Origin: Herbiconiux sp.
Lineage (GTDB): Bacteria; Actinomycetota; Actinomycetes; Actinomycetales; Microbacteriaceae
Length of the DNA: 43,337 nt
Direction of reading: 5' to 3'
Assembly (NCBI RefSeq): GCF_023264855.1
Contig: NZ_JAHFUW010000041.1
Coordinates: 1-43,337, forward strand
The translations under genes were made by a program, and so were the position numbers. Under the pieces are notes generated by a model that saw only the letters and a program-made list of their open reading frames with translations, did not search any database and had not been told where the DNA came from. Position 1 is the stretch's first letter. Each line of letters begins with the position of its first letter. Below, piece by piece: positions 13,368 to 33,315 of the stretch.

Positions 13368-13373
13368 ACGCTA
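13368..13373 (-). promoter_or_regulatory. -10 box, leaderless start of DinB-like gene
   Basis: On the minus strand TAGCGT is followed by six bases and then the ATG at 13361, placing the start site on the initiation codon. Confidence 0.45.
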
Positions 13374-13415
13374 CTCCCACCCCCGCTCCCTCCGTCGAGA
13401 AGCCGCAAATGGCCC

Positions 13416-14546
13416 CTATGACCGACCCGTGGCGGCCATGTGCGACGTTTCGATGACGGCGGTGGCCGCGGGAGGGTTCGGGGCGGGGGCGGCGTGCGGG
13501 GTCGAGGGCTGCGCGCGGGCGAAGACGAGTCGGCGCTGGAGGAGGAAGCCGGCGACGGAGAGCAGGGTGTCGGTCGAGAGCTTGGCGGCGAGCAGCGGCA
13601 TCCCGATGCCCGTGGCGAGGTCGAGCAGGCCGTAGCTCGCGCTCAGCAGCACCACGGCGAGAGCGGCGTACCGTAGCGCGTCGCGGGCGACCGGGCGTCG
13701 TCGGCGCGCCCGGAACACCAGCTGCCGGTTCACCACGAAGTTCACCGCGGCGCTCGCGAGCCGCGCGCCGACCACCGAGAGCAGCAGCGAACCGGTGGCC
13801 GAGAACAGCACCACGAGCAGGATCGCGTCGATCAGGAAGGCCGCCAGCGAAGAGGCCGCGTAGCGCAGGAAAGGCCGCATCACCAGCAGCGAGTCGCGCA
13901 CCGGCCGGAAGTGCGACGACGCATTGTGGTCGAGGTACACCGTCTCGATCGGCAGCTCCCGGATGCCGTAGCCGGCCGCGCCGGCTCCGAGCAGCGCGTT
14001 GAGCTCGTACTCGAACCGCTCGCCCTTCACCTCGAGCAGCCAGGGCAGCATCCCGGGCGGGTACCCGCGGAGGCCCGTCTGGGTGTCACCGACCTCGAGG
14101 CCGCTGGCCATCCGGAAGCTGCCGCGTGCCACGGTGTTGCCCAGCCGGCTGCGCAGCGGCACCCGCCCGGTGAACCGCCGCCCGCCGATCACCATCACCG
14201 AGCCGGGCACTCCCTCGGGCACCGTGCCCGCCAGCTCGGCGGCCACGCGCAGGATGTCGGCGGTGCGGTGCTGGCCGTCGCTGTCGGCGCACACCACCAC
14301 CTCGCCCGGATGCCGCTCGAGCACCTGCGCGAACCCCGTCTTGAGCGCGTGCCCCTTGCCCCGGTTCACGGCGTAGCCGATCACCTCGGCGCCGGCCGCG
14401 CGCACCACGTCGAACACCACGGCGTACTCGCTGCCGCTGCCGTCGTCGACCACGAGCACCGAGGCCTCCGGAGCGGCGGCGCGCAGCTCCCGCACCACGT
14501 CGACGAGCCGCGCATCCGGCTCGTACGCGGGGATGAGCACGATCAC
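13416..14546 (-). CDS. GT2 glycosyltransferase fused to GtrA-like membrane domain
   Basis: This 376-residue fusion has a cytosolic family 2 glycosyltransferase domain (about 1-230) with VLIPAYEPDARL, VLVVDDGSGSE, NRGKGHALKTGF and the metal-binding DxD in VCADSDGQH. A GtrA-type domain with four transmembrane helices follows (about 240-350), including LRYAASSLAAFLIDAILL and FVVNRQLVFRA, the family's NFxxNR.xxF motif. GT2 enzymes of this kind make polyprenyl-phosphate sugars, and GtrA proteins are linked to their translocation. Here the two steps are joined in one chain. The GTG at 14546 overlaps the upstream stop as GTGA, so it is coupled to the phosphodiester glycosidase. A GTG two codons on is an alternative start. 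It probably feeds an extracellular polymer. Confidence 0.88.
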   Translation of the reverse strand: MIVLIPAYEPDARLVDVVRELRAAAPEASVLVVDDGSGSEYAVVFDVVRAAGAEVIGYAVNRGKGHALKTGFAQVLERHPGEVVVCADSDGQHRTADILRVAAELAGTVPEGVPGSVMVIGGRRFTGRVPLRSRLGNTVARGSFRMASGLEVGDTQTGLRGYPPGMLPWLLEVKGERFEYELNALLGAGAAGYGIRELPIETVYLDHNASSHFRPVRDSLLVMRPFLRYAASSLAAFLIDAILLVVLFSATGSLLLSVVGARLASAAVNFVVNRQLVFRARRRRPVARDALRYAALAVVLLSASYGLLDLATGIGMPLLAAKLSTDTLLSVAGFLLQRRLVFARAQPSTPHAAPAPNPPAATAVIETSHMAATGRS

Positions 14547-15598
14547 GAGCCCGCCGCCGATCCGCTCGCCGCGCCGTCCGTGGCGTCCGTCGCCGTCGCC
14601 GACTCGTCCTCGATGTAGAGGATGTCGGAGGTGCCGCGCTCCGTGCCGGTGCCCAGTGGATCGTTCACGAGCGATCCGTCGAAGTACATGGTGGACGATC
14701 CGCCGCCGTCGAGGTTGTAGGCGGTGGTGGCGCCGAGCGACTGCATGATCTCGGCGAGGCCCGTCATCGTGACGCCCGCGCTGTAGCCCGGGCTGCGGCC
14801 GTCGACCACCACGAACACCAGGTGGTTCGTGTCGATCACGCCCACGGCGGTGCGCGGCTGCTCGCCCTGGATGGAGTGGTTGCCGATGTTGGTGTCGACC
14901 TCGACGTCTTCGATGCCGTCGACGATCGTGCCGTCTTCCACGATCGCCGGGCCGAAGCTGAGGGTGTTCCAGACGCCGTCGGCAACCAACTGGTCGGCGG
15001 TCGTTGCCGTCTCGTCGTACACCTCGACGGTGCCGTCGCGATAGAAGGCCAGGCCTTCGCGGGCACCCTCGTCGCGGTAGACGACCCCGTTGCGGATGAC
15101 GATCCCGGTGTCGCGGAAGCCGTAGTAGTCGCCGTTGATCGCGAAGATCGCGTTGTTGTCCTCCGCCGTGTCGGAGGTGGTCTCGGTGATGTTCTCGCCG
15201 AACGAGTTCTGGGCGAAGGCCGAGCGCAGCACGGTCGCATCCGTCAGCGTCACGTCGGCCACGTAGTAGGTGACGGTGTCGTCGCCGCTGCCCGTGGTGA
15301 CGGTCGAGATCTGGATGCCGGCGTCGTCGGAGCTGTAGCTCGTGCCGCTCGTGACCACGCCGGTTCCGGATGCCGCGTCGGTGGCCGTCGCGCCGGTTCC
15401 GGATGCCGCGGCCGAGGCTCGCGCCGACTGCTCGGCCTCGTAGGCGTCGACGTCGGAGATCGCCACGTGCGCGATCACGTAGCGCTCGAGCGCCCACGTG
15501 GTGCCCACGCCGAGGGTGAGCGCCACGCCGAGCGCCGACGCGATGATGACGTTGCGGCGGCGGAACCACCGCCTCTTCCTGGTCTCTGTGTTTCGCAT
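14543..15598 (-). CDS. phosphodiester glycosidase (NAGPA/DUF2233-type) membrane-anchored protein
   Basis: This 351-residue protein has a basic N terminus (RKRRWFRRR) and one transmembrane helix at about 17-36, then an Ala/Ser/Thr/Gly-rich linker. The outer domain is of the NAGPA family, named for the enzyme that removes GlcNAc from GlcNAc-1-phosphodiesters. Key segments are AIFAINGDYYGFRDTG, QPRTAVGVID, FVVVDGRSPGYSAG and TAYNLDGGGSSTMYFDG. Bacterial members are often called exopolysaccharide biosynthesis proteins. The ATG at 15598 is the only usable start because an in-frame TAG lies three codons upstream. Unusually the AGGGAGG ribosome site abuts the ATG. It is coupled to the GT2-GtrA gene, suggesting joint work on a cell-surface glycan. 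Confidence 0.88.
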   Translation of the reverse strand: MRNTETRKRRWFRRRNVIIASALGVALTLGVGTTWALERYVIAHVAISDVDAYEAEQSARASAAASGTGATATDAASGTGVVTSGTSYSSDDAGIQISTVTTGSGDDTVTYYVADVTLTDATVLRSAFAQNSFGENITETTSDTAEDNNAIFAINGDYYGFRDTGIVIRNGVVYRDEGAREGLAFYRDGTVEVYDETATTADQLVADGVWNTLSFGPAIVEDGTIVDGIEDVEVDTNIGNHSIQGEQPRTAVGVIDTNHLVFVVVDGRSPGYSAGVTMTGLAEIMQSLGATTAYNLDGGGSSTMYFDGSLVNDPLGTGTERGTSDILYIEDESATATDATDGAASGSAAGS

Positions 15599-15691
15599 CC
15601 TCCCTTGCTACGCGCGCATCACAGGCGTGCGGTTCACGGGAGGTTGCCGAGCCCTATGACTTCCTATGCGCTCGCCATGAGCGCTCGAGCG

Positions 15692-16120
15692 CTACTCGGT
15701 GGGGCTGTCGGGCGTGCCGCCGCCGTTCACCATCCAGTTGATGCCGAACTTGTCGGTGAGCTGCCCGAAGTAGTCGCCCCAGGGCGCCTTCTCCATCGGC
15801 ACGAAGATCGTGGCGCCCTCGGAGAGCCGGTCGAAGTAGCCGCGCAGTTCGTCGACGTCGTCGCCGCTCAGCGAGACCGTGATGTTGTTGCCGGGCGTGA
15901 GGTCCATCTTGGCCGGCACGTCGGAGATCATCAGCACGAGGCCGCCGTCGGTGACCAGCTGCGAATGCATCACGAGCCCCTCCTCGCCGGGCTCGACGGG
16001 CATCCCGAAATCGGCGAAGGTGCTGCGCGTGATGGTGCCGCCGAGCACCGACCGGTAGAAGTCACCGGCCTCGGCCGCCTGGCCGCGGAAATTGATGTAC
16101 GGGTTCAGGTTCGTGGTCAT
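15692..16120 (-). CDS. VOC-superfamily PhnB-like protein
   Basis: This 142-residue protein of the glyoxalase/bleomycin-resistance/dioxygenase (VOC) fold belongs to the PhnB-like group. The start is LNPYINFRGQAAEAGDFYRS, then GGTITRSTFADFG, VMHSQLVTDGGLVLMISD and at the end KAPWGDYFGQLTDKFGINWM, the conserved tail of this group. PhnB-like proteins are cytosolic dimers of mostly unknown function. The ATG at 16120 has GGAGGAG about seven bases upstream on the minus strand. It is a single-gene unit between the glycan genes and the metallophosphoesterase. Confidence 0.88.
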   Translation of the reverse strand: MTTNLNPYINFRGQAAEAGDFYRSVLGGTITRSTFADFGMPVEPGEEGLVMHSQLVTDGGLVLMISDVPAKMDLTPGNNITVSLSGDDVDELRGYFDRLSEGATIFVPMEKAPWGDYFGQLTDKFGINWMVNGGGTPDSPTE

Positions 16121-16309
16121 GGCGGGCTCCTCCGGTCGATGATGAGCCCACGGTAACAGAGGATGTGGACGGTGTACACATGCCTCCGCGATTTGCCACT
16201 ACCACCCCCGAAATGGGAGCCCGACCGCAGGGGATCCGCGCGATACGATCGCCTCATCGCGCCGCGGAACCACCCGCCCCGACGGCCCGGACACCCCAGA
16301 GGAATCGCC

Positions 16310-18172
16310 ATGCCAGGTCTGTCGCGCCGCCAGTTCGTGACGCGGATCGGTGCACTCGCGGCCGCCTGGGGGCTGAGCCCCGCGCTGCTCGGCTCGGCCG
16401 TCTCGGCGCAGGCCGATCGGGCCGCGCGGCTGGGCTCCGGAGCGGGCGAGGCGGCGATTCAGGATGCCGCGGCCGGAGCATCCGGATCGGCGGGTTCGAC
16501 CCTCGCCCGCACCGTGCTGCAGAGCGCCTCCGGCACCGGCGCGGGATCCGGCCGGTACCGCACTCTCGCCGAGGGGGCGGGCGAGCCGTACATCCCGAGG
16601 CTCGACGTTCTGCGCCGAACCCCGGGGGCCGGCCGCGCGGGCGCCCGCCGCTCCCTGCTCTACCTCGGCCATCTCTCCGACCTGCACGTGATCGACGCCC
16701 AGTCGCCCGGCCGGATCGAGCCGATGATCGTGCAAGACCACTCCGCCTGGGGATCGGCGTTCCACCCCCAGGATCCGCTCACCGTGCACGTCACCGCTGC
16801 CATGGTGAAGACCTTCGCCGACGTGCGGATCAGCCCGCTCACCGGCGCGCCGATGGGCGCGGCGATCGTCACCGGCGACAGCGCCGACATGCACTCCACC
16901 CACGAGCTGCGCTGGTACATCGACATCCTCGACGGCAAGCCGGTGCGGGCGAACAGCGGATCCCCGTCATCCTTCGACGGCGTGCAGGCCTGGCCGGAGG
17001 CGCAGTGGGCGTACCGGCCGGGCGACCCCGCCGGCGGCGACTTCGGCGACCACGGGTTCCCACGTCTGCCCGAGCTGTTGGCCCAGGCCATCGCCGAGCC
17101 CGTGCCCTCCGTGGGTCTGCCGGTGCCCTGGTACGCGGTCTACGGCAACCACGACACCCTCCTGCTCGGCACCTTCGGCCTCAGCTCGCAGCTGGGCGCC
17201 CTCGCCGTGGGCGCGCAGAAGTCGTACACGCTGGAGGCCACGGCCGGCGCGGCGCTCGCGGGTTACGCGGCGACCGCCAGTCCGTTCCAGCGGATGATCG
17301 ACGCCCTCGGACTGCAGGGCGGCTTCCGCTCCGGTTTCCGGGACGTGCCCGCCGATCCGGCCCGCCACCTGTTCGAGCAGCGCGACTTCATGGCCGAGCA
17401 CTTCGTGACCGAGCCGGCGCCGGGCCCGATCGGCCACGGCTTCACGCAGCACAACCTCGACAGCGGCGAGACCTGGTGGCAGGCCGACCTCACCCCCACG
17501 ATCCGGGCCTTCGGACTGGACACCTGCAACCAGGTCGCCGGACCCGACGGCGCAGTTCCCGACGACCAGTTCCAGTGGCTGAAGGGCGAGCTGGAGAAGG
17601 CGCAGGCCGAGAAGAAGCTGGTGCTGATCTTCAGCCACCACAACAGCCTCACCCTGGAGAACCGCGCGCAACGGCCGGGCGAGAACCAGGTGCTGCACGG
17701 GGCGGAGGAGTTCATCGAGCTGCTGCTGGGCTACCCGGTGGTGATCGGCTGGCTGAACGGGCACACGCACCTGAACCAGATCCTCGCGCACACGGCGGGT
17801 TCCGGCGGCGGGTTCTGGGAGATCACGACCGCCTCCTGCATCGACTTCCCGCAGCAGCAGCAGGTCGTCGAAGTGGTCGACAACCAGGACGGCACGCTCT
17901 CGCTGTTCACCACGGTGCTCGACCACGCCTCGCCGATCGAGCCCGGCACATCCGGCGGCTATCTCGACCTGGCATCCCGCAGCCGCGAGCTGGCCGCCAA
18001 CGACTGGGCCGAGACACCGCTGATGCGCCGCGGATCGCCGCTGGACCGCAACACCGAACTGCTGCTGCCGGCTCCCTTCGACCTCTCCGTCGTCACCCCG
18101 GCGATGCTCGAGGCGCAGCACACCACCGAGCGGGCGCGGCTGGTGGCGTACGAGAACCGGGTCGCCTCATGA
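16310..18172 (+). CDS. Tat-exported metallophosphoesterase (TIGR03767-like)
   Basis: This is a 620-residue calcineurin-type phosphoesterase with a twin-arginine signal (SRRQFVTRIGALAAAWGLSP). All five metal motifs are visible in order: LGHLSDLHVID (DxH), VTGDSADMHS (GD), YAVYGNHDTLLLG (GNHD), FSHHNSLTLE (H) and WLNGHTHLNQI (GHxH). It resembles the actinobacterial TIGR03767 family, whose substrate is not established. The ATG at 16310 has AGAGGA about seven bases upstream and places the RR motif at residues 6-7. The Tat signal implies folding and metal loading in the cytoplasm before export. Its stop overlaps the next start as ATGA, forming an operon with a lipoprotein and a membrane protein. 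Confidence 0.9.
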   Translation: MPGLSRRQFVTRIGALAAAWGLSPALLGSAVSAQADRAARLGSGAGEAAIQDAAAGASGSAGSTLARTVLQSASGTGAGSGRYRTLAEGAGEPYIPRLDVLRRTPGAGRAGARRSLLYLGHLSDLHVIDAQSPGRIEPMIVQDHSAWGSAFHPQDPLTVHVTAAMVKTFADVRISPLTGAPMGAAIVTGDSADMHSTHELRWYIDILDGKPVRANSGSPSSFDGVQAWPEAQWAYRPGDPAGGDFGDHGFPRLPELLAQAIAEPVPSVGLPVPWYAVYGNHDTLLLGTFGLSSQLGALAVGAQKSYTLEATAGAALAGYAATASPFQRMIDALGLQGGFRSGFRDVPADPARHLFEQRDFMAEHFVTEPAPGPIGHGFTQHNLDSGETWWQADLTPTIRAFGLDTCNQVAGPDGAVPDDQFQWLKGELEKAQAEKKLVLIFSHHNSLTLENRAQRPGENQVLHGAEEFIELLLGYPVVIGWLNGHTHLNQILAHTAGSGGGFWEITTASCIDFPQQQQVVEVVDNQDGTLSLFTTVLDHASPIEPGTSGGYLDLASRSRELAANDWAETPLMRRGSPLDRNTELLLPAPFDLSVVTPAMLEAQHTTERARLVAYENRVAS

Positions 18173-18555
18173 GGAGGATCGCCGCCGTGCCGCTGACGGT
18201 GGCCCTGGCCACCGCGCTCGCCGGCGCCCTGAGCGGATGCTCGCAGATCGACGCCCTGGCCCCGGTGGGCGGCGACACCCTCGCCGAGGTGCGCTTCGCG
18301 GCGAACGACGTGCTCGTCGCCTCGGGGGTCGAGGTGCTGACGGCCCCGGTCTGCGTGGCGAGCACCACGGCGATCACCTGCGAGGGCGCCACGGCCGAGG
18401 AAGCCGCGATCCTGGTGAAGACCACGTCGGCGGACGAGACATCGCTCGAGGTGACCGTGGGCGGGACGACGCTCTACTCCGGATCGCTGCAGGACGTGCT
18501 CGACGACGCCGCGACGGCCGGCACCTCCCCTGCCACCTCGGAGCCGAGCCCGTGA
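18169..18555 (+). CDS. small lipoprotein of unknown function
   Basis: This 128-residue protein has a lipoprotein signal: Arg-Arg start, hydrophobic stretch, and lipobox LSGC near residue 24. The mature part contains two Cys in APVCVASTTAITCEG, likely a disulfide, followed by short beta-rich segments (LEVTVGGTTLYSGSLQDVL) and a Ser/Pro tail. I recognise no family with certainty; the layout resembles DUF4333-like secreted domains. It overlaps the phosphoesterase stop (ATGA) and the next start (GTGA), so it is produced together with both and probably works beside them at the outer face of the membrane. Confidence 0.82.
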   Translation: MRRIAAVPLTVALATALAGALSGCSQIDALAPVGGDTLAEVRFAANDVLVASGVEVLTAPVCVASTTAITCEGATAEEAAILVKTTSADETSLEVTVGGTTLYSGSLQDVLDDAATAGTSPATSEPSP

Positions 18556-19145
18556 GCGGCCGGCAGGCGGCGGGAACCGTGGCGGCGGCCGTACTCGCGA
18601 ACGCCGCCGTGCAGACGCTGCTGCTGATCGGCGACCCGGTGCCGGCCGTCGACGCCTGGTTCGCCGTGGCGCTCGCGCTCTCGATCACGGCGCTCGTGGT
18701 CGCCGTCGCGGGCGTGACCGCGGGCGTCTCCGGCACCGGGCGCGGTCACCTGCGCGCCTGGCCGCGCGTCGGGCTGCTCGGCTGGGCGCTGGTGCTCACG
18801 GTGGTGACGGCGGCATCCGCGGTGCTCTCCCCGCCGCTCGCGCTGGTTCCGCTGCTGGCCGCCGTCGTTCTGCTGCCCGCCGCGGCGGTGGCTCCTGGAG
18901 TCGGCGCCGCATTCCGGCTCGCCGCGCGGGTGTTCCGGCGAGCGCCCGTGCGCGCCGCGTTCACGCTGCTCGGCGCCGTCGTTCTGCTGGGCCTGGCCTG
19001 GCTCGCGGCCTTGCTGCTCGGCTTCTTCGTCACCGGCTGGCCGGCTTCGCTGGCCACCTGGATCGTGTTCGGCGCCCTCGGCGCGCTGCTGCTGCACCTC
19101 GGCGCCCGGCTGGTGCACCGGGCCGGAGCGCTCGCGACCGCCTAG
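18552..19145 (+). CDS. hypothetical multi-span membrane protein
   Basis: This 197-residue, very hydrophobic Ala/Leu/Val-rich protein has about five to six predicted transmembrane helices and short loops. I recognise no family. The GTG at 18552 overlaps the lipoprotein stop as GTGA, so it is the third gene of the metallophosphoesterase unit. Its TAG stop shares bases with the stop codon of marP on the other strand, leaving no room for a terminator between the convergent genes. Confidence 0.8.
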   Translation: MSGRQAAGTVAAAVLANAAVQTLLLIGDPVPAVDAWFAVALALSITALVVAVAGVTAGVSGTGRGHLRAWPRVGLLGWALVLTVVTAASAVLSPPLALVPLLAAVVLLPAAAVAPGVGAAFRLAARVFRRAPVRAAFTLLGAVVLLGLAWLAALLLGFFVTGWPASLATWIVFGALGALLLHLGARLVHRAGALATA

Positions 19146-23389: not shown

Positions 23390-23463
23390 GAGGTCTCCCC
23401 ACAATTCGAGTCGCTCCACCCTACCAAGTCCCCCGGGCGACACATGTGGGACAAGATGGCGGC

Positions 23464-24684
23464 ATGACCCTGTCGCCGCACCGAGACATCACACTCGTCG
23501 GGACCCTCTTCCAGCCGATCGTCGACATCGCCACCGGTCGCGTGGTCGCGCACGAGGCGCTGTCGCGGTTCGCGGACGGCACGGGCGCGGTCGCCCCCGA
23601 CCTCGCGCTGCAGCAGGCCTACGAGGCCGGCTCCATCGAAGACGTCGATGCCGAGTGCATCGGCCGGGCCGTCGCCGCCGCCGGGGTGATGGGCGGGCGC
23701 CGCGCCCACGACCTGTTCGTCAACGTCGAGCCCCCGACGCTCTGGCGCGAGAACCTCCCCTCCGGCCTCACGAGCGGGTTGCCCCTCACGGTGGAGATCA
23801 CCGAACGCGCTCTCGGGCGCGACACCGGGCGGTTGCTCGCGGCCATCCGGCGACTGCGCGATCTGGGCCACGCGATCGCGGTCGACGATCTCGGTGCCGA
23901 ACCGGCGACCCTGGCGCTTCTGCCGCTGATCGCCCCCGACGTCATCAAGCTCGACATGGGCCTGATCCGCCAGCAGCCCGACCAGAACGTGGCCAGGATC
24001 ATGACGGCGGTCGCCGACTACGCCGCCCACTCCGACACCTTCGTGCTCGCCGAAGGCATCGAGAACGACCGCCACGAAGTCATGGCGCAGGCTCTCGGTG
24101 CGACCTTGGGGCAGGGCTGGCACTACGGCAGGCCGGGCTCCGCGGAAGACGCGGCCGCGGCCGAGAACACCGTCGAGGCCCGAACGGACTTCCGCGCTCG
24201 CGTCGCCCGTTCGGCCTCGGCGGCCACACCCGCCGCAGGCACGCCGTTCGAGATCGTCAGCGCCGCCGTCGAGCCCCGGCGAGGCGGCCGGGAACTGCTG
24301 GTGCAGGTGAGCAAGTTCCTCGAGGAGCGGGCTCGGGCCGGTGGAGACAGCGCGGTCGTGCTCGCGACCTTCCAGCACGACTCGAACGTCACTCCCGCCA
24401 CGGCCAGCCGTTACCAGCGCCTCGCCGACAGCGGCTGCCTCCTCACCGTCTACACCGTGGGGGCCGCCTCAGCCCTTCCGGCGGAAAGCCACAGCAAGGT
24501 CATCGCGGCCGACGATCCGCTCGCCAGGGAATGGGACGTGATCGTCTTCACGGCCGATCATGCCGCCGCCCTCACCGCGCGCGAGATCGACGCGTCCCGG
24601 CACGCCGAGGGGTTCTACGACTTCGTGCTCACCACCGACCGCACCCTCGTCACCCAGGCGGCGCGGGCACTCCTGGCCCGCTGA
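23464..24684 (+). CDS. EAL-DICT protein (probable c-di-GMP phosphodiesterase)
   Basis: This 406-residue cytosolic protein has an EAL domain at about 10-240 and a DICT sensory domain at about 255-400. All usual EAL catalytic motifs are there: AHEALSRF (EAL 31-33), LFVNVEPP (Asn), VEITERA (Glu), IAVDDLGAE (DD), VIKLDM (Lys), LAEGIEN (Glu) and LGQGWHYGRP (Gln). It should therefore hydrolyse c-di-GMP if it dimerises. The C-terminal block (PFEIVSAAVEPRRGGRELLV to LTTDRTLVTQAARALLAR) fits the DICT domain, thought to be a light- or ligand-response module. The ATG at 23464 is preferred; a GTG six codons upstream is possible. No GGDEF gene is nearby. Confidence 0.88.
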   Translation: MTLSPHRDITLVGTLFQPIVDIATGRVVAHEALSRFADGTGAVAPDLALQQAYEAGSIEDVDAECIGRAVAAAGVMGGRRAHDLFVNVEPPTLWRENLPSGLTSGLPLTVEITERALGRDTGRLLAAIRRLRDLGHAIAVDDLGAEPATLALLPLIAPDVIKLDMGLIRQQPDQNVARIMTAVADYAAHSDTFVLAEGIENDRHEVMAQALGATLGQGWHYGRPGSAEDAAAAENTVEARTDFRARVARSASAATPAAGTPFEIVSAAVEPRRGGRELLVQVSKFLEERARAGGDSAVVLATFQHDSNVTPATASRYQRLADSGCLLTVYTVGAASALPAESHSKVIAADDPLAREWDVIVFTADHAAALTAREIDASRHAEGFYDFVLTTDRTLVTQAARALLAR

Positions 24685-24765: not shown

Positions 24766-24771
24766 TAGGGT
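24766..24771 (+). promoter_or_regulatory. -10 box, leaderless start of amidoligase operon
   Basis: TAGGGT is followed by exactly six bases and the ATG at 24778, so transcription would begin at the start codon. No -35 consensus is visible. Confidence 0.45.
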
Positions 24772-24777: not shown

Positions 24778-27372
24778 ATGGCTGCGGTGTTGACGCTTGG
24801 CGCGGAAGAAGAGCTCCACCTGATCGATCTCGAGAGCGGGAAGCTGTCGGCGCGCGCGCCGCAGATCCTGTCGAGGCTGCCCGGCGAGAACTATTCGGCC
24901 GAGATCCAGCGCACGACCGTCGAGACCAACACCGACGTGGTCACGAGCCTCGACGGCCTGCGGCAGGAGATCCTGCGGCTGCGCAAGGGCGTGATCGACG
25001 CGGCCGCTCCCGAGGGAATCGGCATTGCCTGCGTCGGCACGGCACCCCGCAGCGAGTTCGCCGACTTCGAGCTCACCACCAGCGGGCGGTACGGGCGGAT
25101 GCAGGAGCAGTACCGGCTGCTGGTCGACGAGCAGCTCATCTGCGGCACCCAGATCCATGTGGGCGTCGCCGATCGCAACATGGCCGTCGACATCGCCCAA
25201 CGGATCTCCCGCGATCTGCCCACCCTGCTCGCCATCTCGGCCAGCTCGCCCTACTGGAACGGGCACGACACCGGGTACTCCAGCATTCGCTCCATCATCT
25301 GGCAGCGCTGGCCGAGCGCCGGCGCCACCGGAGACATCGGCTCGGCCGCCGAGTACGACGAACTGCTCACCGACCTCATCGCCACCGGGGTGATCGCCGA
25401 CTCGAAGATGGCCTACTTCGAGGTGCGACCCTCCTCGCACGCGCCCACCCTGGAACTGCGGGTGTGCGACGCCTGCCCGATCGTCGACGACGCCGTGCTG
25501 ATCGCCGGTCTCTTCCGCGCCACCGTGCGCGCCGCCGAGCTCGACATCGAGGCCGGCCGGCCGTACCACCCGCAGGCCGCCCCCATCCACCGCGCCGCCA
25601 TGTGGCAGGCCGCGCGTTCTGGCCTCACGGGCGACCTGCTCGACGACACCGTGCATCCGCGGCCCACCGCCGCCGCCCACGCCGTGCGGCACCTCATCCG
25701 GCGCCTCCGCCCGCAGCTCGAAGAACTGGGCGACTACGACGAGGTCGTCGACCTGGCCGACACCCTCCTGGCCCGCGGCAACTCGGCCGACCGGCAGCGC
25801 GCCACGTTCGCCGAACGCGGCGAGATCGACGCGGTGGTGAAGCTCGTCGTCGCCGAGACGCACGGCCCCGCCGGAGGGCTCGCCCCGGCCGCTCCCGCTC
25901 TGCGCAGCTACCGCACGCGTGCCGGCGACGAGGCCGTCGGCCCCGGGTCGCGCCCCCGCCCCGCCTACGAGCAGATCGTGCGGCACGTCGAAGAGCTGAG
26001 CCCGCACCAGGTCGGCGAGCGGATGCGCGCGAGCCGCCGGTGGGCGAGCGAGCACGAGCTGACCTTCGGCGTCGACGGCGAGCTGCGGCCGTTCGAGGTC
26101 GACCTGGTGCCGCGCATCATCACGGCGCACGAGTGGAGCGACATCGCGGCGGGCCTCACCCAGCGGGCTCGGGCTCTCGAGGCCTTTCTGCAAGACGTCT
26201 ACGGGCGGCAGCGCATCCTGACCGACGGTGTGATCCCCCGTGGCGCGGTCGAAGGCGCCCCCGGCTGGCAGGACGACGCCCGCCGGCTGCCCGAGGGGAC
26301 CGTGCGCTCGGCCGTGTTCGGCTTCGACCTCGTGCGCAACGAGTTCGGCGGCTGGCGGGTGCTCGAAGACAACGTGCGCAATCCCAGCGGGGCCGCCTAC
26401 GCCCTGGCCATCCGGCAGCTGATGGATGCCGTGGCCGCCGACGTGCCGCGGCCGGCGGGCATCCTCGACCCCGTCACCGCCTTCGCGGCTCTGCGCCGCG
26501 CACTGCTGGCGGGTGCGCGCCGAGCCGGTGCGCCGACCGACGATTCCTCCCGCGCCCCGGTGCTGGCGCTTCTGAGCAGCGGGCCCGACAGCACCGCGTG
26601 GTTCGAGCACCGGCTGCTCGCCGAGGGAGCCGGGCTGCTGCTGCTGACGCTCGACGAGATCGAGGTGCACGACGGGCGGGTGGTGTCGCGCGAGGGCCGC
26701 ACGCCGGTCGACGCCCTCTACCTGAGGCTGGACACCGAGCTCCCGGATGCCGTGGACGGGTCGGGCGCGCCGATCGGACGCGACGTCATGTCGGTGGCCG
26801 CCGCGGGCCAGGTGTTCCTGGGGAACGCCCCGGGCAACGGGATCGCCGACGACAAGGCGATGTACTGCAACGTGCCGAGCCTGATCACCTACTACCTCGA
26901 CGAGCGCCCGCTGCTGGAGCAGGTTCCCACCTACCGCACCAGCGACGAGACGGAGCGCCGCGGCGTGCTCGAACGGGTCGGTGAGCTGGTCACCAAGCCG
27001 GTCGACGGGCACGGCGGCGAGGGCGTGCTGATCGGCCCGGCCTCGGGTGCGGCGGCCGTGGCCGAGCGGCGGGCCGAGATCGCGGCCGATCCGGAGAACT
27101 GGGTGGCGCAGGAGGTGGTGGCACTGTCGTCGCATCCGACGTTCGTGGTGCCCGACGAGGGCGAAGACGCGGTCGCCGACGACGGCGGCACCGTGCTGGA
27201 GCCCCGTCACGTCGACCTGCGCGTGTTCGTCTACGCCACCGGCGACGGCGAGTACGGCCTGAGCGTGGCCGACCTCGCTCTCACCCGGGTCGCACCGGCC
27301 GGGAGTATGGTGGTCAACTCCTCCCGCGGCGGGGGCTCGAAAGACACCTGGATCCTGCCCGCCAAGCGGTAG
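24778..27372 (+). CDS. GCS2-type carboxylate-amine ligase fused to circularly permuted ATP-grasp ligase
   Basis: This 864-residue fusion joins two amide-bond-forming enzymes. Residues about 1-360 are a glutamate-cysteine-ligase family 2 (YbdK-like) domain: LTLGAEEELHLIDLESGKL, SAEIQRTTVETNTDVV, GTQIHVGVADRN and HAPTLELRVCDACPIVDDAV. From about 396 on comes a type 2 circularly permuted ATP-grasp domain (COG2308-like): FEVDLVPRIITAHEW, GFDLVRNEFGGWRVLEDNVR, NAPGNGIADDKAMYCNVPSL, KPVDGHGGEGVLIGP and PRHVDLRVFVYA. The first should join an amine to glutamate's gamma-carboxyl; the second should extend or modify the product. An Ala/Pro/Arg linker at about 360-395 separates them. GTG 24772 is an alternative start. 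The product is presumably handed to the amidotransferase 48 bases downstream. Confidence 0.88.
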   Translation: MAAVLTLGAEEELHLIDLESGKLSARAPQILSRLPGENYSAEIQRTTVETNTDVVTSLDGLRQEILRLRKGVIDAAAPEGIGIACVGTAPRSEFADFELTTSGRYGRMQEQYRLLVDEQLICGTQIHVGVADRNMAVDIAQRISRDLPTLLAISASSPYWNGHDTGYSSIRSIIWQRWPSAGATGDIGSAAEYDELLTDLIATGVIADSKMAYFEVRPSSHAPTLELRVCDACPIVDDAVLIAGLFRATVRAAELDIEAGRPYHPQAAPIHRAAMWQAARSGLTGDLLDDTVHPRPTAAAHAVRHLIRRLRPQLEELGDYDEVVDLADTLLARGNSADRQRATFAERGEIDAVVKLVVAETHGPAGGLAPAAPALRSYRTRAGDEAVGPGSRPRPAYEQIVRHVEELSPHQVGERMRASRRWASEHELTFGVDGELRPFEVDLVPRIITAHEWSDIAAGLTQRARALEAFLQDVYGRQRILTDGVIPRGAVEGAPGWQDDARRLPEGTVRSAVFGFDLVRNEFGGWRVLEDNVRNPSGAAYALAIRQLMDAVAADVPRPAGILDPVTAFAALRRALLAGARRAGAPTDDSSRAPVLALLSSGPDSTAWFEHRLLAEGAGLLLLTLDEIEVHDGRVVSREGRTPVDALYLRLDTELPDAVDGSGAPIGRDVMSVAAAGQVFLGNAPGNGIADDKAMYCNVPSLITYYLDERPLLEQVPTYRTSDETERRGVLERVGELVTKPVDGHGGEGVLIGPASGAAAVAERRAEIAADPENWVAQEVVALSSHPTFVVPDEGEDAVADDGGTVLEPRHVDLRVFVYATGDGEYGLSVADLALTRVAPAGSMVVNSSRGGGSKDTWILPAKR

Positions 27373-27420
27373 GACCGAGCGCCGGGCCAGGCCGGACCAT
27401 CGACGGAAGAGGCGAACGCG

Positions 27421-29205
27421 ATGTGCGGAATAGCGGGCGAGATCCGTTTCGACCAGCGGGTGGCCGACGGCGACGCCGTGCAACGGATGACCGGCTGTCA
27501 GAGTGATCGCGGGCCCGACGGATCGGGGTTCTGGGCCCACGAGCACGTCGCACTCGGCCACCGCCGCCTCGCCATCATCGATCTCTCGGAGGCCGGCGCG
27601 CAGCCGATGGTCGACACCGATCTCGGCCTCTCGATCGTGTTCAACGGCTGCATCTACAACCACCACCAGCTCCGTGCCGAGCTGCAGGGCCTCGGCCACC
27701 GCTTCTTCTCCACCTCCGACACCGAGGTGATCGGCAAGGCGTATGCCGAATGGGGCATGGACTGCGTCGGCCATCTGCTGGGCATGTTCGCGTTCGTGGT
27801 CGTGGAGCACGCCTCCGGGCGCGTGATGATGGCCCGCGACCGCCTGGGCATCAAGCCGCTCTACCTCGACGAGCGTCCCGACCGCCTGCGCTTCGCCTCG
27901 ACCCTGCCGGCCCTCCTCGCCGCGGGCGACGTCGACACCTCGATCGACCGCACCGCCCTGGAGTACTACCTCACCTTCCACTCGGTGGTGCCCGCGCCCC
28001 GAACCATCCTGAACGGCGTGCGCAAGCTGCCGCCGGCGACGGTGCGGATGATCGAACCCGACGGCCGCTTCACCGAGCACGTCTACTGGACGCCCGCGTT
28101 CGAGCGCGACGCCTCCCGTGCCGACTGGGACGACGCCGACTGGCAGGAGGCCCTGATCGGCAGCCTCCGCACCGCGGTCGAGCGCCGCATGGTGGCCGAC
28201 GTGCCCGTGGGGGTGCTGCTCTCGGGCGGGATCGACTCGAGCCTCGTGGTGGCGCTGCTGGCCGAGGCCGGGCAGAGCGACCTGGCCACCTTCAGCATCG
28301 GCTTCGACTCGGCGGGCGGGGAGTCCGGCGACGAGTTCGAGTACTCCACCCTCGTCGCCGAGCATTTCGGCACCGATCACCACCGCATCGCGATCGACAG
28401 CGGACGACTGCTGCCCGGCATCGACGGCACGGTCGCCGCGATGAGCGAGCCCATGGTGAGCCACGACTGCGTGGCGTTCTACCTGCTCTCCGAAGACGTC
28501 TCGCAGAGCGTGAAGGTGGTGCAGTCGGGACAGGGCGCCGACGAGGTGCTGGGCGGCTACGACTGGTATCCGCCGCTCGCCTCCGTGCCGCGCGACCAGG
28601 CCGTGGAGGCGTACTCCCGTGTGTTCTTCGACCGCCGCCGGCCCGCGCTGGAGAAGCTGCTCAACCGCGCCTGGCTCGACGAGACGGATGCGCCGACCGC
28701 GTTCATCCGCGCCCGCTTCGCCGAGCCCGGCGCCGAGACGGCGGTCGACGCCGCCCTCCGCAACGACACCACCGTGATGCTCGTCGACGACCCGGTGAAG
28801 CGGGTCGACAACATGACGATGGCCTGGGGCCTGGAGGCGCGGGTGCCCTTCCTCGACCACGAGTTCGTGGAACTGGTGGCCGCGATCCCGCCCGAGCTGA
28901 AGTTGTCCGACGGCGGCAAGGGCGTGCTGAAGCGAGCCAGCCGCGGCCTGGTTCCGGATGCCGTGATCGACCGCACCAAGGGCTACTTCCCGGTGCCCGC
29001 CATCCGCCAGCTCGAGGGCCCGTACTTCGAGCGCGTGCGCGCGGCACTCACCGACCCGGCCGCGCGCCGTCGCGACCTGTTCGACGCCGGCACGGTGGAG
29101 TCGATGCTCGCCGCCCCGAACGAGACCCGCACCACGCTCGGCTCGAACGCGCTCTGGCAGCTCGCCCTGCTGGAGATGTGGCTGCAGGAGAACGGCATCC
29201 GATGA
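27421..29205 (+). CDS. asparagine-synthase-like amidotransferase, probable N-acetylglutaminylglutamine amidotransferase type
   Basis: This is a 594-residue class II amidotransferase. Cys2 of MCGIAGEIRF is the N-terminal nucleophile. The glutaminase domain runs to about 190 (RGPDGSGFWAHEHVALGHRR, LSIVFNGCIYN). The AMP-forming synthetase domain has the PP-loop VLLSGGIDSSLVVALLAE and SGQGADEVLGGYDWYP. MSEPMVSHDCVAFYLLSE and the overall sequence resemble the amidotransferase of N-acetylglutaminylglutamine amide (NAGGN) synthesis (PA3459-like, TIGR03104) more than AsnB. It should therefore amidate a peptide carboxyl group, not aspartate. GGAAGAGG about eight bases before the ATG is the ribosome site. 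Its stop overlaps the peptidase start as ATGA. The GNAT/ATP-grasp partner of the known NAGGN pathway is absent here, replaced by the GCS2/ATP-grasp fusion. Confidence 0.85.
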   Translation: MCGIAGEIRFDQRVADGDAVQRMTGCQSDRGPDGSGFWAHEHVALGHRRLAIIDLSEAGAQPMVDTDLGLSIVFNGCIYNHHQLRAELQGLGHRFFSTSDTEVIGKAYAEWGMDCVGHLLGMFAFVVVEHASGRVMMARDRLGIKPLYLDERPDRLRFASTLPALLAAGDVDTSIDRTALEYYLTFHSVVPAPRTILNGVRKLPPATVRMIEPDGRFTEHVYWTPAFERDASRADWDDADWQEALIGSLRTAVERRMVADVPVGVLLSGGIDSSLVVALLAEAGQSDLATFSIGFDSAGGESGDEFEYSTLVAEHFGTDHHRIAIDSGRLLPGIDGTVAAMSEPMVSHDCVAFYLLSEDVSQSVKVVQSGQGADEVLGGYDWYPPLASVPRDQAVEAYSRVFFDRRRPALEKLLNRAWLDETDAPTAFIRARFAEPGAETAVDAALRNDTTVMLVDDPVKRVDNMTMAWGLEARVPFLDHEFVELVAAIPPELKLSDGGKGVLKRASRGLVPDAVIDRTKGYFPVPAIRQLEGPYFERVRAALTDPAARRRDLFDAGTVESMLAAPNETRTTLGSNALWQLALLEMWLQENGIR

Positions 29206-31208
29206 GCGGCGCGACGATCCGTTCGATGGCAGGCCCCGCAGGCGCACCGATGACCCCGCGCGCACCCGGTTCCCCGGGGGCGGACGGCGGTGACCTGGCC
29301 GCGCAGCTCGTGGGTGCCTGGGGCAGCTGGGGCCCGTCGATGACCCCGGATGCGCGCCGCGTGGCCTTCGTCAGCGACCGCGGCGGCTCGCCCGAGGTCT
29401 GGGTGCAGGACGTGCCCGAGCCCGGCGCGACCGACATCCCCGAGGCGCAGCGCGTGCGGGTCTCCGACGACCCGGTCATCGCGGTGAGCTGGTCGGCCGA
29501 CAGCGCCTGGCTCGCCTGCGCCGTCGCGACCGACGGCGGCGTGCGCACGCAGGTCTGGGTGGTGCGGCCCGACGGGAGCGACGCCTGCCGCATCTCGGGC
29601 GACCCCGAGCGGCACGCCGAGCTCGGGCCTTGGACCCGCAGCGGGCACCGCGTCATCCTCACCGTGCCCGCGACGGCGCCCGGGGAGCGCACCCGCGCGT
29701 TCCTGGCCGATCCGCTCACCGGCGCGCTCGAACCACTGGCCGAGGGCGCGCTGATCCACGTGCTCGACCTCTCGGCGGGCGAGCGGATGCTGGTGATGCG
29801 CGACGGCCCGCGCGGCCACGAGTTCTGTGTGGTGGTCGACCGCGAGACCGATCGCGATCACGCCGTGATGCCGCATCCGGCCACCGGGGGCACCGATGTG
29901 GCGTTCATCCGGCCCGCGCCTCCCGGGGAGAGCGCTCCCGCGGTCGTGTACGCCGCCACCGAGGTGGGGCTGCCCCGGCGGCAGCTGGTGGCCATTCCCG
30001 TCGATCCCGCCGACTGGGGGCGGGCACCGAGGGTGCTCGCCGACCGGGCAGACGCCGAGCTGGAAGCGCTCGACGCCGACGATGCCGGGCGCCTGCTGCT
30101 GCTCGTGTGGAACGTGGCGGGACGCAGCGAGCTCGAGCTCTACGACACGGTGACCGGGCGGTTCGAGCCCGTGCCGGGGCTACCGGGCGCCGTGGCCACG
30201 AGCCCGGTGCTCAGCCGCGACGGGTCGAGCGTGCTGCTGGCGGTGGAAGGCCCGCAGCGGCCGCGCGAGATCTGGCGGCTGGACACCGCCGGCTTCGCCT
30301 GGACGCGCGTGACCGCGGTGCCCGAGCTGCCGGCGGCGCGACTCGTGGTGCCGACCCTGGAGACCTACCGCTCGCTCGACGGACTCGAGATCACGGGCTG
30401 GCTGTACCGGGCGGCGACGACGGATGCGACGGACACGGGCTCGGGCCTGGGCATCGAGACCGTTTCTGCCCGTGCGGGGGCTTCGCGCTCGGGACCGTGG
30501 CTGCTCCCCGCGCCGGCGGAGCCCGTTCCCGGCCCCGCGATGCTGCACCTGCACGGCGGGCCCGAGTCGCAGGAACGGCCCACGTTCAGCCCGCAGCATC
30601 AGGTGCTCGCGGCATCCGGCATCGCCGTGTTCGCGCCGAACGTGCGCGGCTCGTCCGGATTCGGGCGGGAGTTCGGCCACGCCGACGACGTGCGCGGCCG
30701 GCAGGGCGCCTTCGACGACGTCACGGCGGCCGCGCAGTTCCTGGTCGCCGCGGGCATCGCCGATCCGGGCCGGATCGCGGTGACGGGCCGCTCGTACGGC
30801 GGGTACCTCACCCTCGCGGCGCTGGCCTTCACGCCCGGCGTCTTCGCGGCGGGCGTCGACGTCTGCGGCATGTCCGACCTGCACCACTTCTATGCCGAGA
30901 CGGAGCCGTGGATCGCGGATGCCGCCGTCACCAAGTACGGGCATCCGGTCGACGACGCTGAGTTCCTGGCCACGATCTCGCCGCTCGGGAGTGCCGCGCG
31001 CATCCGGGCCCCCCTGCTCGTGGTGCACGGCGAGCTCGACACCAACGTGCCGATCGGCGAGGCGCACCGCATCGTCGCCGCCCTGCGTGCCCTCGACCGC
31101 CCGGTCGACTACCTCGAGCTCGCCGGCGAGGGCCACGAATACCGCCGGGCCGACTCCCGCCTGCGCCTGATCGCCGCGATGCGCGACTTCCTCGCCCGGG
31201 AGCTCTGA
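29202..31208 (+). CDS. S9C-family acylaminoacyl-peptidase-like serine peptidase
   Basis: This 668-residue cytosolic prolyl-oligopeptidase-family protein has an N-terminal beta-propeller (about 35-380, e.g. MTPDARRVAFVSDRGGSPEV, AVSWSADSAWLACAV) and a C-terminal alpha/beta hydrolase. The triad is Ser531 in TGRSYGGYL, Asp613 in HGELDTNVP and His645 in GEGHEYRR. HLHGGPESQ gives the oxyanion region. S9C enzymes release N-acylated amino acids from short peptides. No signal peptide is present. Translational overlap (ATGA) with the amidotransferase suggests it recycles or trims the peptide made by the operon, as the M42 peptidase is thought to do in proteobacterial NAGGN operons. Confidence 0.88.
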   Translation: MSGATIRSMAGPAGAPMTPRAPGSPGADGGDLAAQLVGAWGSWGPSMTPDARRVAFVSDRGGSPEVWVQDVPEPGATDIPEAQRVRVSDDPVIAVSWSADSAWLACAVATDGGVRTQVWVVRPDGSDACRISGDPERHAELGPWTRSGHRVILTVPATAPGERTRAFLADPLTGALEPLAEGALIHVLDLSAGERMLVMRDGPRGHEFCVVVDRETDRDHAVMPHPATGGTDVAFIRPAPPGESAPAVVYAATEVGLPRRQLVAIPVDPADWGRAPRVLADRADAELEALDADDAGRLLLLVWNVAGRSELELYDTVTGRFEPVPGLPGAVATSPVLSRDGSSVLLAVEGPQRPREIWRLDTAGFAWTRVTAVPELPAARLVVPTLETYRSLDGLEITGWLYRAATTDATDTGSGLGIETVSARAGASRSGPWLLPAPAEPVPGPAMLHLHGGPESQERPTFSPQHQVLAASGIAVFAPNVRGSSGFGREFGHADDVRGRQGAFDDVTAAAQFLVAAGIADPGRIAVTGRSYGGYLTLAALAFTPGVFAAGVDVCGMSDLHHFYAETEPWIADAAVTKYGHPVDDAEFLATISPLGSAARIRAPLLVVHGELDTNVPIGEAHRIVAALRALDRPVDYLELAGEGHEYRRADSRLRLIAAMRDFLAREL

Positions 31209-31557: not shown

Positions 31558-32400
31558 TCAGCCGGCGGCCACCACCTGGGCGCCGAGCACCACGAGCAGC
31601 GCGAGCTTGTCGGCACTGGGAGACCCGGGGGTGGCCGTGAACACGAGCAGCGACTGCGCCTGGTCGGGGTCGTAGACCACCTGGCAGTAGAGCGAGAGCT
31701 CGCCGACCTCCGGATGCGCGAAGCGCTTCTCCTCGGTGTACCGCAGGCCGACCTCGCTCTCGGCCCACAGCGCCGCGAAGTCGGGGCTCTGGGCCAGCAG
31801 GTGCTGCACCATCTCGGCGGCCTCGGAATCCGGTCCGCGCTGGGCGGCGGCGCGGCGCAGCTGGGCCACCTGCACGCGGGCGTGCCGCGGCTGGTCCTCG
31901 CGCGGATAGATGTCCCGCGAGGCGGGATCGGCGAACCAGCGGTAGGTCGAGCTGCGCATCCGGCCCGTGTGCCGCGTCTGGTCGCCGAGCAGCGCGACCG
32001 CGGGCGGGGTCTGCACGATCGTCTCGCCGAGCGAACCCATGATCTGCGCGGGGGTATCGGCGAGGCGGTCCAGGATGCGCATCAGCCCCGGGCTGACATG
32101 CTCGCTCGACGCGGCCCGGCCGGGTGGGCGCAGGCCCGCCAGCAGGAACAGGTGGTCGCGCTCGTCGATCGTGAGCCGGAGCCCGCGGGCGATCGCCGCC
32201 ACCATCTGCTCGGAGGGCTGCGGCCCGTCGCCGCGCTCGAGCCGGGCCAGGTAGTCGGCCGACATGTCCGAGAGCTCGGCGACCTCCTCGCGGCGCAGGC
32301 CGCTGGTGCGCCGCCGGCTGCCGCGGCGAAGGCCCACGTCTTCGGGCTGCAGCGCCTCACGGCGGGTGCGGAGGAATTCTCCGAAAGCCGTGCGATCCAT
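31558..32400 (-). CDS. XRE-family regulator with MmyB-like ligand domain
   Basis: This 280-residue transcriptional regulator has an N-terminal helix-turn-helix of the XRE type (about 8-70; FLRTRREALQPEDVGL, GLRREEVAELSDMSADYLARLERG). The longer C-terminal domain is typical of MmyB-like regulators (GSLGETIVQTPPAVALLGD, YRWFADPASRDIY, SEVGLRYTEEKRFAHPEVGELSLYCQ), thought to bind a small lipid-like ligand. The ATG at 32400 has AGGAG about eight bases upstream; the basic extension upstream is rejected as start. It is divergent from an SDR gene across a 31-bp inverted repeat, the classic arrangement of such regulators with the dehydrogenase they repress. Confidence 0.92.
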   Translation of the reverse strand: MDRTAFGEFLRTRREALQPEDVGLRRGSRRRTSGLRREEVAELSDMSADYLARLERGDGPQPSEQMVAAIARGLRLTIDERDHLFLLAGLRPPGRAASSEHVSPGLMRILDRLADTPAQIMGSLGETIVQTPPAVALLGDQTRHTGRMRSSTYRWFADPASRDIYPREDQPRHARVQVAQLRRAAAQRGPDSEAAEMVQHLLAQSPDFAALWAESEVGLRYTEEKRFAHPEVGELSLYCQVVYDPDQAQSLLVFTATPGSPSADKLALLVVLGAQVVAAG

Positions 32401-32483
32401 CGGCGCTCCTCGCCTCTCCCGCCGCATCCGGCGCCTGCCGCGGCGCATCCGGCCGCCCCTCCACTCTGACGGGTCGGCGCGCG

Positions 32484-32514
32484 CTTATCCACTGCCTGGC
32501 ATTCAGTGGATGAG
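32484..32514. promoter_or_regulatory. operator-like inverted repeat between XRE regulator and SDR gene
   Basis: CTTATCCACTG (32484-32494) and CAGTGGATGAG (32504-32514) match at 10 of 11 positions as inverted arms around a nine-base spacer. It sits centrally in the 156-base divergent gap. A dimeric XRE regulator bound here would control both genes. Confidence 0.7.
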
Positions 32515-32556
32515 CGTGTCCTGGTGCGCCCTCGCCGGCCGGAGTGGACTACCGGC

Positions 32557-33315
32557 ATGGACATCACCGGAAACACCCTCTTCATCCCCGGCGCGACCTC
32601 GGGCATCGGCCTCGGTCTCGCGCTCCGCTTCCAGGCCGCCGGCAACACGGTCATCGTGGGCGGCCGTCGCCGCGCACTGCTCGAGCAGATCGCCGCCGAG
32701 CATCCCGGCATCGGCACGGTCGAGGTCGACATCACCGACCCGGCATCGATCCTGGCCGCCCGCGACGAGGTGCTCGCGGCGCATCCGCAGCTCGACGCCG
32801 TGATCGCGATGGCCGGCATCATGCTGCCCGAAGACCTCACCGAACCCGCCTCGCTCGAGATCGCCGAGCGCACCGTCACCACGAACCTGCTCGGGCCGAT
32901 CCGCCTGGCCTCGGCCTTTCTGCCGCAGCTGATCGCCCGCGCCTCGGCCGGTGCCCGCCCCGCCTTTGTGACGGTCTCCTCGGGCCTGGCCTACGTTCCG
33001 CTGCCGGCCACGCCCACCTACAGCGCCACGAAGGCCGCCATCCACTCGTTCACGGATGCGATGCGCGTGCAGCTGCAGGGCACCGGCGTGCAGGTGGTCG
33101 AGCTGGTTCCCCCGGCGGTCGGCACCACTCTGATGGGACTGGACCAAACCGACTACGCGATGCCGCTCGAGCAGTTCCTCGACGAGGTGATGGCCCTGTT
33201 CGCGGCCGACCCCGCCGCCGAGCAGATCGTCGTCGACCGCGTGCGCTGGCAGCGGTTCGCCACCGCCGAGGGCCGCTACGCCGAGGTGCTCGAGGCCCAG
33301 TCCGCCCGTCACTGA
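32557..33315 (+). CDS. short-chain dehydrogenase/reductase (DltE-like)
   Basis: This is a 252-residue classical SDR. The nucleotide-binding motif is FIPGATSGIGLGLALRFQ, the NNAG-equivalent is AMAGIM, catalytic Ser is in FVTVSSGLAY and Tyr/Lys in TYSATKAAIHSF. The sequence resembles COG3967 (DltE-like) oxidoreductases, often paired with MmyB-like regulators. Arg at GGRRR after the second strand suggests NADP(H). The ATG at 32557 is preferred because it starts just before the first strand (MDITGNTLFIPGA). Substrate unknown; regulation by the adjacent XRE protein is likely. Confidence 0.9.
   Translation: MDITGNTLFIPGATSGIGLGLALRFQAAGNTVIVGGRRRALLEQIAAEHPGIGTVEVDITDPASILAARDEVLAAHPQLDAVIAMAGIMLPEDLTEPASLEIAERTVTTNLLGPIRLASAFLPQLIARASAGARPAFVTVSSGLAYVPLPATPTYSATKAAIHSFTDAMRVQLQGTGVQVVELVPPAVGTTLMGLDQTDYAMPLEQFLDEVMALFAADPAAEQIVVDRVRWQRFATAEGRYAEVLEAQSARH

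Follow-up and report, generated by a model that had tools for sequence, protein, structure and literature searches.

If databases assign a gene to the pathway of a known osmoprotectant, N-acetylglutaminylglutamine amide (NAGGN), what does it make when the usual partner genes are not beside it? The question is raised by three adjacent genes of a Herbiconiux sp. (Microbacteriaceae), which lie on a contig of 43,337 nucleotides (NZ_JAHFUW010000041.1, assembly GCF_023264855.1), called the window below. The central gene encodes a glutamine amidotransferase of the TIGR03104 family, the family of the NAGGN enzyme AsnO. It is preceded by a gene for a fusion of two ligase domains, GCS2 and ATP-grasp, and followed by a gene for an S9-family serine peptidase. 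The three genes were found in this order at most of the loci that carry the fusion, and we suggest that they form a unit that works like the NAGGN operon and probably makes a different amidated peptide.

The amidotransferase and its partners in the window

For the product of gene 2, which has Asn_synthase and GATase domains, TIGR03104 gave 937.1 bits (cut-off 570.1), compared with 431.5 bits (cut-off 267.1) for the asparagine synthetase model TIGR01536, and none of 14 control genomes held a TIGR03104 match over the cut-off. The original prediction, made by a model from the sequence alone, had proposed this resemblance to the NAGGN enzyme rather than a best match to AsnB, and the scores agree with it. 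The AlphaFold2 model of the amidotransferase (predicted local distance difference test score, pLDDT, 89.4; predicted template modelling score, pTM, 0.90) was matched by Foldseek to TsnB9, AsnB and beta-lactam synthetase.

The same prediction had claimed three coupled genes, with an ATGA overlap, in which both usual NAGGN partners, Ngg (TIGR03103) and an M42 peptidase, are replaced. The open reading frames (ORFs) lie as it gave them (Table 1), with a 48-bp spacer between genes 1 and 2 and the stop of gene 2 overlapping the start of gene 3 in the ATGA at 29202-29205; the fusion and the S9 peptidase stand in place of the partners. By profile search, the genome of the window (4.37 Mb in 97 contigs, 95% complete) holds a single TIGR03104 gene over the cut-off and no TIGR03103 gene over the cut-off (best 23.7 bits vs 569). 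No match to an M42 profile was found in the scanned 24-kb part of the window, no genome-wide search for it being made.

Gene 1 starts at the ATG at 24778, with an in-frame GTG at 24772, from which the residues of the fusion are numbered (GCS2, 9-285; ATP-grasp, 447-841). That two ligase domains share one chain, as predicted, was seen from the Pfam matches. The GCS2 domain belongs to the YbdK type by TIGR02050 (260.2 bits, cut-off 176.4), and its half of the fusion matched 1r8g in sequence (E 3.2e-42). It missed the EgtA model TIGR03444 (19.6 bits, cut-off 370.8) and the cyanobacterial GshA model (33.5 bits, cut-off 249), and passed NF010041 (354.8 bits, cut-off 332), a subfamily model whose name, "glutamate--cysteine ligase", is no proof of function.

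With the AlphaFold2 model of the fusion (pLDDT 91.0, pTM 0.79), the first 50 Foldseek matches were led by 3n6x (0.87) and by YbdK and its Salmonella homologue, the template modelling (TM) score by target being 0.85-0.86 for YbdK. Human, plant and yeast glutathione synthetases (0.55-0.68), plant glutamate-cysteine ligase (GCL; 0.61-0.63), homoglutathione synthetase and E. coli GspS (0.38-0.43) came next. The matches were assigned to the two halves from the sequence matches, as the Foldseek table names no half. Eukaryotic glutathione synthetase itself has a permuted ATP-grasp fold, and the ATP-grasp half of the fusion is, by its model, of this glutathione-synthetase-like kind. The predicted ATP-grasp domain is thus present, its type being corrected to the circularly permuted one, and because of these two sets of fold matches the layout of the fusion resembles a two-step glutathione synthetase. 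A second copy of the ATP-grasp domain, 44% identical, lies elsewhere in the same genome (C26), and the nearest named fusion among the best 80 loci is that of Herbiconiux moechotypicola (74%).

The product of gene 3, predicted to be an S9C acylaminoacyl-peptidase, contains a Peptidase_S9 domain, and its best solved relatives by sequence were 5l8s and acylamino-acid-releasing enzymes. As for the leaderless promoter that had been claimed, a TAGGGT was found at a fitting distance, ending 6 bp 5' of the ATG of gene 1, and is read as a candidate -10 element. A TANNNT lies 5-7 bp 5' of a possible start at 28 of 56 fused loci (a raw count with no shuffled control), among them 9 of the 10 named Microbacteriaceae loci.

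Table 1. Positions in the window of the operon, its domains and motifs, and the genes on either side.
Feature	Position	Strand	Basis or remark
-10-like TAGGGT	24766..24771	+	Sequence reading; spaced for a leaderless transcript from ATG 24778
Gene 1, GCS2 / circularly permuted ATP-grasp fusion	24778..27372	+	ORF list, Pfam; two ligase domains in a single chain
GCS2 domain, YbdK-type carboxylate-amine ligase	24796..25626	+	PF04107 E 1.2e-49; TIGR02050
Circularly permuted ATP-grasp domain	26110..27294	+	PF14403 E 4.5e-105; 3n6x E 2.1e-131, profile A1
Gene 2, TIGR03104-type glutamine amidotransferase / AsnB-fold synthetase	27421..29205	+	937.1 bits, cut-off 570.1
C-terminal motif TRTTLGSNALWQ, residues 569-580, Arg570	29125..29160	+	Alignment vs LTPLRGNKLWQ of Ngg-linked enzymes
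Gene 3, S9-family serine peptidase, prolyl oligopeptidase fold	29202..31208	+	PF00326 E 1.1e-44
EAL-domain protein with DICT sensory domain	23446..24684	+	Directly upstream of the operon
Regulator with MmyB-like ligand-binding domain	31558..32448	-	Downstream of the operon
Short-chain dehydrogenase	32506..33315		Adjoins the MmyB-like regulator gene

Partner genes and clades across actinobacteria

The fusion was used on its own as the query in named genomes, and among the best 80 loci at least 39 carried both domains. These loci come from Microbacteriaceae, Micromonosporaceae, Pseudonocardiaceae, Streptosporangiaceae, Williamsia, Microlunatus, Pseudofrankia and further groups, and a single locus is labelled Nevskia, perhaps through a binning error. 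The order fusion, amidotransferase, S9 was found at 33 of the 39. The six exceptions were L105, L106, L139, L130, which lacks S9, L134, which lacks the amidotransferase, and L133, which is cut by a contig end. At L105 (7989-10634, Herbiconiux) and L106 (7989-10607, Subtercola boreus) the fusion gene is solitary, with neither amidotransferase nor S9 gene adjoining. In a set of 56 fused loci, selected because both domains matched strongly, GCS2 and ATP-grasp shared one frame and were less than 400 bp apart in all 56, and the full order was present at 49, with median gaps between profile matches of 53 and 23 bp. This count includes two loci where the amidotransferase is preceded by a gap of 2.5 kb (L120) or 1.6 kb (L141), one with the amidotransferase broken over two frames (L152) and one with a contig end within S9 (L136). 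A survey of co-occurrence, suggested as a check in the original prediction, therefore shows the three genes staying together in most relatives.

By a rough gene call in the flanks of these 56 loci, no fifth partner was common to distant lineages. The widest families were ABC ATPases (12), protein kinases (7, with the kinase gene directly downstream at four loci of Pseudonocardia) and ABC permeases (5); the remaining recurrent genes were common to close kin only.

The amidotransferase was also searched for, and the partners in its fetched surroundings were labelled by means of profiles made from seed proteins. Of 396 phylum genomes, 46 had a TIGR03104 match, all over the cut-off, and 198 genomes of the order gave 40 loci in 36 genomes, the window being the sole positive common to both samples. 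The partner was Ngg in 31 of the 46 phylum genomes, the fused GCS2/ATP-grasp protein with S9 in four, GCS2 with S9 and no ATP-grasp in four, ATP-grasp with DUF1028 in four (one cut by the contig before DUF1028), GCS2 only in one and S9 only in one, with one unresolved at a contig end. For the 40 order loci the counts were 24 for Ngg, 13 for the fusion with S9, one for GCS2 with DUF1028 and two for neither. A TIGR03104 gene without an Ngg neighbour is thus found in 15 of 46 phylum genomes (including the unresolved one) and at 16 of 40 order loci, roughly a third of actinobacterial cases, and the curated equivalog name misleads for these.

Further arrangements were seen beside these. A permuted ATP-grasp protein, a TIGR03104 enzyme and a DUF1028 protein make up a fourth arrangement (L026, L032, L099, L197), in which L197 is contig-cut with no DUF1028 seen, and a weak or separate GCS2 gene occurs in L032, L099 and L197. 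For two TIGR03104 genes (L076:8597-10381, L080:8619-10430) neither a ligase nor a peptidase was recognised as a partner in the neighbourhood. Many Micromonospora genomes hold a second, lower-scoring copy, and in Micromonospora noduli a further copy (L201:2652-5595) faces a divergent GCS2 gene that is encoded on the opposite strand.

In a tree of 81 amidotransferases, made by a quick method with a very distant outgroup, so that the grouping is unrooted, 49 enzymes linked to GCS2, S9 or both (38 fused, eight GCS2 with S9, three S9 only) were one branch with a Shimodaira-Hasegawa-like approximate likelihood ratio (SH-aLRT) of 100. All 23 Ngg-linked enzymes lay outside it, as did three from the ATP-grasp/DUF1028 arrangement and those of L027, L079, L076, L080 and L201. 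Judged by sequence, the GCS2/S9-linked amidotransferases are a clade separate from the Ngg-linked enzymes. The three full amidotransferases of the ATP-grasp/DUF1028 arrangement were a branch of their own.

When 56 Ngg-linked enzymes were compared by column with 56 GCS2-linked ones, 110 invariant columns were common to both sets, including the PP-loop SGGxDSS, and a single column, residue 570, was conserved yet different (at least 88% in each set). It is Arg in 55 of 56 GCS2-linked enzymes, and Leu in 53, Ile in two, a gap in one and Arg in none of the 56 Ngg-linked ones. The stretch around it reads approximately R-T-x-L-G-[SA]-N-A-L-W-Q in the former and L-T-P-L-R-G-N-K-L-W-Q in the latter. 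Arg570 was also present in the S9-only enzymes L017 and L019, and absent from the other seven unclassed ones. The alignment to 7ylz reaches profile position 561 only, short of residue 570, and any role of the arginine relative to the active site is a guess.

Could NAGGN still be made in these genomes by an Ngg encoded elsewhere? The TIGR03103 search gave no match over the cut-off in any of 24 further genomes whose arrangement is not of the Ngg type (G466 had a partial match of 181 bits; G344, unresolved at a contig end, was left out), and it recovered all four genomes that hold both kinds. A hidden Ngg was therefore rejected for the window genome and for these 24.

The fusion can also be reduced. 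An unfused GCS2 form was found in Streptomyces fungicidicus, Embleya and four genomes grouping with them, and in Microbispora and Nonomuraea. It was nested within the fused form at two places in both the amidotransferase tree and the GCS2 tree, the latter made by a quick method with long branches (L027, L079, L201) and used for this placement only. At E 1e-20, no copy of the ATP-grasp domain was found in five of five short-form genomes (four plus Microbispora rosea), and two copies each were found in the window, Herbiconiux and Subtercola genomes; a substitute ATP-grasp elsewhere in the short-form genomes was therefore rejected. Because the ATP-grasp domain is lost with no other copy, gamma-glutamyl ligation and amidation seem to be the core of the system, with the ATP-grasp step as an extension. 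From the original prediction, the replaced partners, the linkage and the score unlike that of AsnB stand; the type of ATP-grasp had to be corrected, and its absence from some lineages, the separate amidotransferase clade and the genomes with a fusion but no TIGR03104 match are additions to it.

Among 61 genomes from the genus to which Micromonospora noduli belongs, the centre genome being chosen for having the fusion, 11 carried the fusion, 43 Ngg over the cut-off, none both and seven neither. The fusion search gave 12 matches, 11 with both domains (one frame-split) and one with ATP-grasp only (G607). TIGR03104 was present in all 61 genomes and adjoins the fusion in 11 of 11 (partial in two). 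The Fisher value for this exclusion is 7.6e-8, which ignores shared ancestry. Fourteen loci were fetched for a site comparison, and blastn of two fusion loci against six Ngg loci and a third fusion locus matched only the amidotransferase between the two kinds, so that replacement at the same site was rejected. NAGGN clusters are treated as conserved in Micromonospora and as NAGGN-making in two papers (PMC11537254, PMC12915310); this view should be re-examined where a species has the fusion but lacks Ngg.

A proposed amidated gamma-glutamyl peptide and its rivals

We consider it somewhat probable that the operon is a dedicated module for the synthesis and turnover of a small amidated gamma-glutamyl di- or tripeptide, used in the way that NAGGN is. 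The GCS2 domain would use ATP to activate the gamma-carboxyl of glutamate and couple it to an amino acid, and the permuted ATP-grasp domain would append a further residue in the manner of glutathione synthetase, a step that would be absent in some lineages, leaving a product one unit shorter. The TIGR03104-type enzyme would then amidate the C-terminal carboxylate with glutamine, as AsnO does for NAGGN, and the S9 peptidase would break the peptide down.

Because the core is largely common with the NAGGN enzymes, amidation may again fall on a C-terminal glutamine. The same kind of C-terminal residue would then be amidated, the changed tail of the enzyme suiting a different remainder of the peptide, and perhaps fitting a gamma-glutamyl group with its alpha-carboxylate free. 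For the short form, the simplest candidate would be gamma-Glu-Gln-NH2, net neutral as NAGGN is. By analogy, the likeliest use of such a peptide would be as a compatible solute, replacing or accompanying NAGGN.

Several findings weigh against this proposal. Three genomes with the fusion (Herbiconiux, L105; Subtercola boreus, L106; a Corynebacterium metagenome-assembled genome, L134) have no TIGR03104 match genome-wide at E 1e-100. In Planobispora (L139) the parts lie at two places, with the amidotransferase and S9 at L200; L130 has no S9, and L053 has no amidotransferase of its own. Ngg and the fusion occur together in four genomes (G505, G407, G561, G437), so that they are not strict alternatives. 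The exclusion in Micromonospora is a raw count, uncorrected for kinship, and the two operons occupy different sites at the loci compared. The flanks of the 56 loci give no pointer to osmotic control. L053 has a further feature: an NAGGN amidotransferase and Ngg are followed there by the fusion, S9 and M42 (8553-19001), with a second amidotransferase absent, and one amidotransferase may serve both ligase systems.

Of the other explanations, the one that survives best, and which we regard as unlikely, is an amidated analogue of glutathione, gamma-Glu-Cys with a third residue and a cap, made by a module for thiol redox or detoxification. The folds match glutamate-cysteine ligases and glutathione and homoglutathione synthetases, and the GCS2 domain passes NF010041. 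However, that model defines a subfamily, the EgtA and GshA cut-offs were missed, the amidotransferase is akin to the NAGGN enzyme and no thiol-handling gene recurs in the flanks of the 56 loci. These bacteria also depend mostly on mycothiol.

Less likely again would be a peptide attached to a protein, the cell wall or a secondary metabolite, with the amidotransferase and S9 peptidase editing the attachment. Fusions without an amidotransferase would fit, and circularly permuted ATP-grasp proteins were reportedly proposed for peptide tagging in the 2009 amidoligase survey of Iyer et al. However, the fused loci have no recurrent gene for a carrier, tag, transporter or precursor, and the amidotransferase is akin to an enzyme for a free dipeptide.

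Slightly further down, and improbable, is NAGGN itself made by another route, with the fusion standing in for Ngg and the acetylation coming from elsewhere. The passed TIGR03104 cut-off, the 110 shared invariant columns and the mutual exclusion of Ngg and fusion in Micromonospora speak for it, but neither ligase domain is an acetyltransferase and none recurs in the flanks of the 56 loci. In addition, the amidotransferase clade is separate, with a changed C-terminal motif, and the two complete operons in each of G505, G407 and G561 would be redundant. That gene 2 encodes a plain asparagine synthetase and has unrelated ligase and peptidase neighbours is scarcely credible and was rejected: the cut-off of TIGR01536 is passed too, but the TIGR03104 score is more than twice as high, no control genome of 14 reaches its cut-off, and the linkage holds at 49 of 56 fused loci.

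Beyond the proposed gamma-glutamyl peptide, a wider reading is offered tentatively, as a possibility that we do not yet favour. TIGR03104-type amidotransferases could be a plug-in amidation module for a family of undescribed amidated peptides in actinobacteria, joined to exchangeable front ends (GNAT/ATP-grasp, GCS2/permuted ATP-grasp, GCS2 alone, or a separate permuted ATP-grasp with a weak GCS2) and hydrolases (M42, S9 or DUF1028). Different small neutral peptide amides would result, including an amidated gamma-glutamyl peptide that replaces NAGGN as a major compatible solute.

If the proposal holds, culturable genera such as Curtobacterium, Rathayibacter, Pseudonocardia, Actinoplanes and Micromonospora could be searched for a class of actinobacterial solutes or redox peptides that has not been described. 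The two kinds of amidotransferase, which resemble each other in the core but differ in a short motif at the C-terminus, would offer a natural test of adaptation to a new peptide. A literature search found no paper on this gene combination among the records listed, and PMC13060819 and PMC2922099 have no bearing on the operon; an earlier description may exist, for example in the 2009 survey.

Comparison with known systems

In one report, the NAGGN pathway of Pseudomonas comprises an asparagine synthase, a GNAT protein and a peptidase, with osmotic phenotypes (PMC8070244). The NAGGN trio was found annotated in Azospirillum at one of our comparison loci. The operon described here shares with the NAGGN operon (asnO TIGR03104, ngg TIGR03103, M42) its amidotransferase family, over the cut-off, and the general plan of a single operon that combines a peptide ligase with an amidotransferase and a peptidase (compare L102). 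It differs in having the GCS2/permuted ATP-grasp fusion and S9 in place of Ngg and M42, the latter being absent from some Ngg pairs as well (for example L015, S. meliloti). The product of gene 2 does not group with the Ngg-linked enzymes, and its motif differs from their LTPLRGNKLWQ-like one.

For the fusion, YbdK and plant-type GCL resemble the N-terminal half in sequence and fold, and 3n6x, eukaryotic-type glutathione synthetase and GspS resemble the ATP-grasp half; here the two halves are fused to each other and tied to an amidotransferase. GshF likewise joins a gamma-glutamyl ligase and an ATP-grasp ligase in one chain. This likeness is of layout only: its structures (3ln7, 3ln6) appear in the fold list with weak whole-chain matches (TM by target 0.36-0.38), and the make-up of the GshF family differs from GCS2 with a permuted ATP-grasp.

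The operon on plasmid p1 of S. fungicidicus (L016) likewise has GCS2 first, then the amidotransferase and an S9-type hydrolase, and its amidotransferase belongs to the same clade. It lacks the ATP-grasp, and its record names the amidotransferase N-acetylglutaminylglutamine amidotransferase. To summarise, the operon in the window is conserved and appears to work like the NAGGN operon without being a member of it, with a putative product and role of its own.

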